Below are positions 2,311 through 58,545 of a stretch of 64,000 nucleotides of DNA, one piece after another. Source of the stretch: Pteria penguin (lineage: Eukaryota > Mollusca > Bivalvia > Pterioida > Pteriidae); contig CM068587.1 of NCBI GenBank assembly GCA_035048485.1, positions 42,469,842 to 42,533,841 of the forward strand, written 5' to 3'. The notes beneath the pieces were generated by a model, which did no database searches, had not been told where the DNA came from, and worked only from the letters and a program-made list of their open reading frames with translations. Every line of letters begins with the position of its first letter. Positions within the stretch are counted from its first letter, which is position 1. The translations under genes and the position numbers were made by a program.

Positions 2311-5300
2311 GTAAAGTTTTTTTCATTTGTTAGGGGTTTTTGAGGGATTCAGCTTTAATGCACATTGTTCTTAAATCTGGCAAAGCCTGTCTTGACACAG
2401 GGTACTGATTAAAATGGTCTCACCTGAAAGAGATGAGTAAACATTTTCAGAGTGGTATTGACCTTGAACTCTAGTAAATTTTCTTTAGTAAACTGTTTTG
2501 TTCGTATTAAGTACAGATTTATAAAAAAAAATCAGGCAAAATATCAGACCTAATAATTGCTAATGATACATGAAGAAAAGTTTTTAGAACATCTTATTTG
2601 TGTATTTTATGAGTCAAAGTGCAGTATATTTTTTTTTCCCCGTATTCCCTTTTAATAATAATTCGCGAATAAATTGATGTGAAAAAACGTTCACCACTAA
2701 TATTGAAACTAAGAATTCTTATTTTCCTGAATATACACTAAAAAATATACCAAAAATAGACATTAAAACGATTCATCTGATTTTTAAATGGACCTATACT
2801 TCAACTGGTACAGCATTGCTTTTAATATATTACATGTGAAAGAGTGGTTGCAAAATTGAGGTTGGCTGGTAAATTCTCAATCCATTTTAATCATTTTCAA
2901 ATGTCTGTTCAGAACTAGCTTAGCTCAGAAGGGTCTGTCACAGTATGTGTAATGAAATTGTAAAAATTGAAATTTGACAAGTTAATGATCTGTCTAGATG
3001 TTTAGTGAGTAGTTTGACATGTGAATTTACCAGTCCTTAGTAATAAGTCTCCATTTTTGGTAAATATACCCTTGCAAATTTTGTTTTAAAAATGTTTAAA
3101 CATTGTGAATTGATTTCATTTCAGGAAGAAGAAAGAAAAAAAATTCACGAAAGACTAGAAACAGAGACTATCCATGCTAGTATTTTACGTCACAAGTTAC
3201 AATTTCTGCCAGCACAAATAAAGGAAGAAATCAAGGCAGCTGTAAACTCTGCTCGCCAGTCCAATGCTAATGCTCTCTCTTCCTTGCAAACTAAGTTAGA
3301 TGGCATTTACTCAAACACTGCATACCTTGAGGAGAGACAGAGAGAATTAGACAAAGAAAATGCTACACTACAGTAAGTCATTCTATAAAATGCTACACTA
3401 CAGTAAGTCATTTTGTAAAATGCTACACTACAGTAAGCCATTCTATAAAATGCTACACTACAGTAAGTCATTCTATAAAGTACTACACTAGTCAATTAAT
3501 TTCTATAAAATGCTACAATACAGTGAGTCATTCTGTAAAATGCTACACTACAGTAAGTCATTCTATAAAATGCTACACTACAGTAAGTCATTCTATAAAA
3601 TGCTACACTACAGTAAGTCATTCTATAAAATGCTACACTACAGTAAGTCATTCTGTAAAATGCTACACTACAGTAAGTCATTCTATAAAATGCTACACTA
3701 CAGTAAGTCATTTTGTAAAATGCTACTCTACAGTAAGTCATTCTTTAAAATGCTACACTGCAGTAAGTCATTCTATAAAGTGCTACACTAGTCATTCTAT
3801 AAAATGCTACACTACAGTAAGTCATTCTATAAAGTGCTACACTACAGTAAGCCATTCTATAAAATGCTACACTACAATATGCCATTCTATAAAATGCTAC
3901 ACTACAGTAAGTCATTTTATAAAATGCTACACTACAGTAAGTCATTCTATAAAGTACTACACTAGTCATTCTATAAAATGCTACACTACAGTGAGTCATT
4001 CTGTAAAATGCTACACTACAGTAAGCCATTCTATAAAATGCTACACTACAGTAAGTCATTCTATAAAGTACTACACTAGTCATTCTATAAAATGCTACAC
4101 TACAGTAAGTCATTCTATAAAATGCTACACTACAGTAAGTCATTCTATAAAGTACTACACTAGTCATTCTATAAAATGCTACACTACAGTGAGTCATTCT
4201 GTAAAATGCTACACTACAGTAAGCCATTCTATAAAGTACTACACTAGTCATTCTATAAAATGCTACACTACAGTGAGTCATTCTGTAAAATGCTACACTA
4301 CAGTAAGCCATTCTATAAAGTACTACACTAGTCATTCTATAAAATGCTACACTACAGTAAGTCATTCTGTAAAATGCTACACTACAGTAAGTCATTCTGT
4401 AAAATGCTACACTACAGTAAGTCATTCTATAAAATGCTACACTACAGTAAGTCATTCTATAAAGTGCTACACTAGTCATTCTATAAAATGCTACACTACA
4501 GTAAGTCATTCTATAAAGTGCTACACTAGTCATTATATAAAATGCTACACTACAGTAAGTCATTCTATAAAGTGCTACACTACAGTAAGCCATTCTATAA
4601 AATGCTACACTACAATAAGCCATTCTATAAAATGCTACACTACAGTAAGTCATTCTGTAAAATGTGTGCTTCAGCATTATTTAGATACTATGTTTCTTCT
4701 CATATTTCAGATGAATTTACATCAACAAAACGAAATTTCTGGAAAAAAATTTCAAGAAATTACTTATACTTGTTAAAATATTTTCACATATTTATGATAT
4801 TCATATTGTATTCATATCTTTAAAATTTACAGAAACTTGTACATATATAATACATTTTTATATTTAGATTGATATATTACAACAGCCATTAAGTGTAAAT
4901 ATACACAGTAATACAGAATCAGTCCTTTCTATGATGTAACAATAACTTGTAACTGAAAATGACTGTTATGATAACATACTGATTGTTAATGTTTCATTGT
5001 ACACCATGTGCTATTGTAAATAATGTATAAGGGTGTGTGATGAGTTCTTTATAAGTCTGCTATGGCTTTCGTATATCAGTGGTTCATTAATTCTTGAAAA
5101 GAGCACTGGAACATGAAATGAAGGAGCCTCTTAATAGCTTGTACATAAAAGTTCATTTCATTTGTTGTTCTGAAACTTAAAGTACTTGCTATTCTTCAGT
5201 ATAAGCACTATTAAATTGTAATAAATATGTCTATTATATGTTTAAATTCAACATTTTACTTTGGTCCTTGGTTCAATAATATCATAAAGCAATACGGGTG

Positions 5301-58545: not shown

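Follow-up and report, generated by a model that had tools for sequence, protein, structure and literature searches.

Two neighbouring genes occupy the window, by which we mean the whole 64,000-bp stretch of Pteria penguin DNA analysed here. The gene on the - strand belongs to the sorting nexin 5/6/32 group and has PX and Vps5 domains. It matches sorting nexin 5 in the PDB (8afz_B) with an E-value of 9.9e-128, and a protein of Pinctada imbricata, with 92% identity to our hand-joined query, stands first among the 1598 proteins found at E ≤ 1e-60. The gene on the + strand spans roughly 2.2 to 42.6 kb and has a coiled-coil product of no named family: a Pfam search gave nothing above the cut-offs, and a PDB search with the two halves of the gene gave no match. 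Where its relatives carry an organism name, it is that of a mollusc or an annelid, among them Magallana gigas (P0004) and Mytilus edulis (P0002 and P0005). In five of the 15 relatives (P0006, P0008, P0010, P0011, and P0015), the match covers the exon at 3125 as well as that at 30587, which places the first two of the arrays listed below in one gene; a division of the + strand exons into two genes was dropped on the strength of the same five matches.

Three minisatellites are present in these genes, each starting close to the 3' end of a coding exon and running across the 5' splice site into the intron. Arrays 1 and 2 lie in the coiled-coil gene and array 3 in the sorting nexin gene. The description in the original prediction of three separate arrays in two neighbouring genes, with units composed of an exon end and an intron start, is borne out both by direct inspection of the sequence and by TRF. 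The arrays and the exons that flank them are as follows.

3125..3372, + strand: coiled-coil coding exon, ending CTACA/GTAAGT in phase 2, with array 1 starting at 3357 (tblastn with P0004-P0014)
3357-4664, + strand: array 1, 30-bp unit, 45.2 copies (TRF and copy alignment)
5594..5671, + strand: exon after array 1, 3' end approximate; acceptor ∼930 bp past array 1
30587..30718, + strand: coiled-coil coding exon, ending ATGAAG/GTAAGT in phase 0, with array 2 starting at 30672 (join compared with P0001)
30672-31699, + strand: array 2, 62-bp unit, 16.1 copies (TRF and copy alignment)
32507..32645, + strand: exon after array 2, 3' end approximate; acceptor ∼810 bp past array 2
58435..58545, - strand: PX-domain exon of the sorting nexin 5/6/32 gene, ending GGCATTATA/GTAAGT in phase 0, with array 3 starting inside it
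54481-58475, - strand: array 3, 78-bp unit, 51.0 copies, 97% matches (TRF and copy alignment)
53684..53804, - strand: next sorting nexin exon; acceptor ∼680 bp past array 3

All three units (30, 62, and 78 bp) fall within the 10–100 bp range by which a passage of PMC11506328 defines minisatellites (VNTRs). By copy alignment, array 1 comprises 45 copies and a partial AAAATG, array 2 comprises 16 copies and a partial ATAC, and array 3 comprises 51 copies. Numbers of about 34, 15, and 50 had been given earlier, the first of which has to be replaced by 45. The figure of 34 arose because 34 of the 45 copies in array 1 keep a GT donor (24 GTAAGT, 6 GTAAGC, and 4 GTGAGT). The donor is lost in the other 11, mostly through a single deletion variant found repeatedly along the array. 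GTAAGT is intact in 15 of 16 copies in array 2 and in 49 of 51 in array 3. Counted per intron and including the one that is used, GTAAG donors number 30, 15, and 49 for arrays 1, 2, and 3, respectively.

The division of the unit between exon and intron is 16 + 14 bases in array 1 and 47 + 15 in array 2, as predicted, whereas the 36 + 42 proposed for array 3 shifts to about 38 + 40, with an ambiguous cut that allows up to 41 + 37. Array 1 also has a higher-order period of 84 bp, in which two units of 30 bp are combined with a 24-bp unit that has lost the donor. Copies deviate on average by 7.2% in array 1, 5.4% in array 2, and 1.5% in array 3; such differences in sequence, length, and divergence between the units are as expected of unrelated events. 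Coding constraint is lost in the intronic copies of array 2, where 13 of the other 15 copies have TAG in place of the exon's CAG codon.

Donor choice and the consequences of later donors

The donors were checked by joining each exon to the next one and comparing the product with homologous proteins. At array 1, the join of 3372 to 5594 restores a split His codon (CA/C) within a conserved His-Pro-Glu and reads ENATLHPERDL against ENAKLHPEREL in P0004 (the P0004 counterpart of the longer join is ENAKLHPERELIRQKHEE). The His is replaced by L in P0005 and P0014, by Y in P0008, and by Q in P0010 and P0011, and none of the relatives compared has a different length at this position. The join across array 2, MQDKIDTMK + TEIEDM, is equal in length to MQGKVDKTEKEINTF of P0001. 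The join across array 3, from 58435 to 53804 after ENEEYAGII, aligns without a gap to PDB 8afz_B, and its length is identical in all 120 nexin relatives listed (115 by pattern and 5 with one changed residue). Judged by these joins, the first donor is the coding one in all three arrays. The three acceptors, ∼680 to 930 bp outside the arrays, lie in no array listed by TRF. The GTAAGTCAT shared by two of the donors was not read as a sign of kinship: the usual donor sequence accounts for six of its nine positions, and chance has to supply only CAT.

Splicing from any later GTRAGY donor would add an in-frame stop, as had been noted before, and this holds for 33 of 33 such donors in array 1, 14 of 14 in array 2, and 48 of 48 in array 3. 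The stops lie at +1, +48, and +24 nt, respectively. In DNA of such composition, the chance of meeting a stop within one unit is 0.54, 0.79, and 0.87 for arrays 1, 2, and 3, and the joint chance of stops in all three is ∼0.37, so the stops are unremarkable.

The design common to the three arrays, with an exon piece shorter than one unit, is likewise a matter of geometry: if each unit of a periodic array holds one donor and the exon has to end at the 5'-most to keep its frame, the exon part must be the shorter. It then remains to explain only why there are three donor-spanning arrays.

Placement and origin of the donor-spanning arrays

We examined array placement in this one window with 14 arrays of at least 3.2 copies, 31 donors, and 33 acceptors, taking the ancestral length as 48,858 bp. 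The exon table behind it (22 coiled-coil and 11 sorting nexin exons) was compiled manually from matches to homologs, and a number of its ends are approximate. A wider set of 35 tandem repeats remained of 57 TRF rows once nested rows had been merged and four simple repeats, with units of 2, 2, 3, and 6 bases, had been removed; a few of these 35 still overlap. The 14 arrays cover 15,867 of the 64,000 bp (24.8%), and with about a quarter of the window being minisatellite, some overlap with donors is expected.

Three of the 14 arrays span a donor, against 0.45 expected (Poisson P = 0.011; simulation P = 0.009). The probability is 0.012 when only exon-sparing placements are considered and 0.007 when at least 5 bp are required on each side of the donor (0.38 expected), and it rises to 0.068 when donors and acceptors are pooled for the 14 arrays and to 0.113 when all 35 tandem repeats are included (3 seen, 1.17 expected); because the donor pattern was chosen after it had been seen, all these values overstate the effect. 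Donor-spanning arrays are thus only weakly more frequent than chance would have them. Acceptor-spanning repeats are absent from both sets, but the expectations (0.48 for the 14 arrays and 1.24 for the 35 repeats) are too low for these zeros to demonstrate a survival filter. One short, poor repeat among the 35 lies inside a coding exon.

We consider it probable that the three arrays arose as ordinary minisatellites, in a bivalve genome rich in them, were seeded by chance across a 5' splice site, and were tolerated there. The exon end and its donor would first have been copied as one tandem duplication, probably between short direct repeats, and slippage or unequal exchange would later have multiplied the unit. 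Short repeats common to exon and intron are AAAATG at array 1 and ATAC at array 2, with about ATG, seen by eye only, at array 3; the partial copies AAAATG and ATAC at the array ends are such as a first duplication of this kind may have left. The gene would stay in working order, since the 5'-most donor presumably ends an intact exon in the RNA and the rest leaves with the intron, and the position of the acceptor outside the array would let all copies past that donor be spliced out. Arrays that hit an acceptor or the interior of an exon would in most cases alter the protein and disappear, whereas donor-spanning ones could survive. That 11 of the 14 arrays touch no donor, that the first donor is the coding one and later ones would bring a stop, that intronic copies drift, and that 11 of 45 copies in array 1 are donor-less all fit ordinary minisatellites. 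Against this reading stand the three donor-spanning arrays where 0.45 were expected (P = 0.011), the donor being the best-kept 9-base window in array 2, the short repeat inside a coding exon, and the shortness of the seeding repeats.

The same excess among the 14 arrays, in the Poisson, simulation, and exon-sparing calculations alike, would be expected if 5' splice sites were hotspots of tandem duplication, as originally proposed, where pausing, R-loops, or U1-bound nascent RNA lead to breaks and slippage and raise the rate at which minisatellites form at donors. A hotspot should, however, also show among the 21 tandem repeats with fewer than 3.2 copies, none of which spans a donor (0.72 expected, which makes this a weak test), and the excess fades over all 35 repeats and when acceptors are added, in a pattern picked post hoc from one window. 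Nor does the sequence of the arrays favour the R-loops suggested at the outset: at 30–36% GC, the GC skew of the coding strand is of mixed sign (-0.33, +0.18, and +0.36 for arrays 1, 2, and 3). The units do not fold clearly better than shuffled sequences (z = -1.10, 0.43, and 0.01), and an origin through hairpins was discarded for want of consistent folding among the three. We regard a hotspot as doubtful. It also seems unlikely that minisatellites of this bivalve lineage are born preferentially at 5' splice sites, so that donor-spanning arrays would recur as a class, lengthen introns, and fill many of them with dozens of strong but unused donors. Should donors prove to be hotspots, the birth of tandem repeats would be tied to transcription or splicing, which a simple count could test.

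A function for the arrays, with the rows of donors acting as U1 snRNP decoys or as a splicing/NMD switch that lowers expression through the later donors, appears improbable. The number of GTAAG donors in each intron and the premature stop that use of any later donor would bring would suit such a role, but a stop within one unit is expected by chance with the probabilities given above (0.54–0.87). Selection for U1 binding should make the donor the part of the unit that varies least, and we ranked it by conservation among all 9-base windows, 1 being the most conserved. The donor ranks first of 62 in array 2 (as a hexamer, sixth in an 11-way tie), average in array 3 (27 of 78; hexamer 46 of 78), and last in array 1 (30 of 30; hexamer 30 of 30; 25 of 30 for the 9-mer when only substitutions are counted), where 11 copies have lost it altogether. 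Only in array 2 is the donor conserved above the rest of the unit, and as copies within an array are not independent, even that rank is weak. Ranks as inconsistent as these lend no clear support to the U1 decoys envisaged in the original prediction.

Misassembly that built the arrays or inflated their copy numbers is very improbable. The length and great uniformity of array 3 (97% matches) might suggest it, but the copies share variants in mosaic patterns, a higher-order period of 84 bp overlies the 30-bp one in array 1, and the edge copies of array 2 are divergent, all as in evolving repeats; the copy number may nevertheless be wrong. An origin of the introns through tandem duplication, a mechanism that has been described, including duplication across an intron-exon boundary (PMC4974935), is scarcely credible here, as the acceptors lie outside the arrays and the repeat does not supply both intron ends.

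Read as ordinary repeats, the arrays still have a use: their introns, each with a row of 15 to 49 nearly identical donors of which only the first keeps the frame, offer a natural test of how cells select one of several competing 5' splice sites.

Precedents and other features of the window

Minisatellites of this kind are already known, and the three in these two neighbouring genes, with their long units and no open frame past the first donor, add new cases. The human IFI6 gene (G1P3, 6-16) reportedly has a minisatellite with a 12-bp unit at the end of exon 2. In the account that a citing paper gives of Turri, Cuin and Porter (1995, Nucleic Acids Res 23:1854), two of its downstream repeat units act as splice donors, from which three species of IFI6 mRNA result. 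The original prediction knew of no described class, whereas this splice-donor minisatellite is cited in print, at least in that secondary account. As is reported for IFI6, the units carry a donor and the first one ends the exon. Unlike the account of IFI6, in which two downstream units are used, the frame here does not remain open past the first donor, every later one bringing a stop, and the units measure 30–78 bp.

Other precedents share single features with these arrays. A tandem duplication across an intron-exon boundary is described for a potato RdRp gene, together with a fission yeast intron that extends over four copies of an exonic 24-bp repeat (PMC4974935). The potato case resembles ours in that a tandem duplication crosses an exon/intron border, but it involves one acceptor duplication and a new intron, whereas here many copies carry donors and the acceptor lies outside. 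The minisatellite in intron 2 of hTERT, with a 61-bp unit, 40–44 copies, and ∼10% divergence, is in the same range as the present arrays in all three respects (PMC2915984, in excerpt), and intron 1 of earthworm metallothionein also contains a minisatellite (PMC12783039, in excerpt). Unlike for the arrays described here, a crossing of the donor is not stated for either in these excerpts (PMC2915984, PMC12783039). Within the open-licence PMC literature, judged by titles and the starts of abstracts, we found no survey of arrays at donors.

Further repeats are scattered across the window. The region 23536-25733 holds 94 copies of a 24-bp unit, and 40319-41643 holds 24 copies of a 55-bp unit. Two arrays, at 1613-2123 and 42077-42354, stop ∼80 and 53 bp short of the acceptors of coiled-coil coding exons (exon starts approximate), and a perfect 26-bp tandem duplication at 50527-50581 ends ∼12 bp before a sorting nexin acceptor (exon edge near 50515, - strand). 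At 11812-13249 lies an array with a 43-bp unit, a pair of which, as single-stranded DNA, folds far better than shuffled sequences (z = -3.66); among the 11 array units folded (of 14), this is the only one to fold clearly above shuffles.

Between coiled-coil exons, an open frame at 22076-22354 encodes 93 acidic, proline-rich residues (DNSDEEEV...GYMEWGVI). P0001 joins straight across it and P0010 gives only a weak match (E = 0.07); the frame may be an alternative exon or another gene. Finally, tRNA-like sequences were found at 31936-32001 (ARAGORN), 42970-43043 (ARAGORN and Rfam), and 61613-61684 (Rfam), and are probably tRNA-derived short interspersed repeats.
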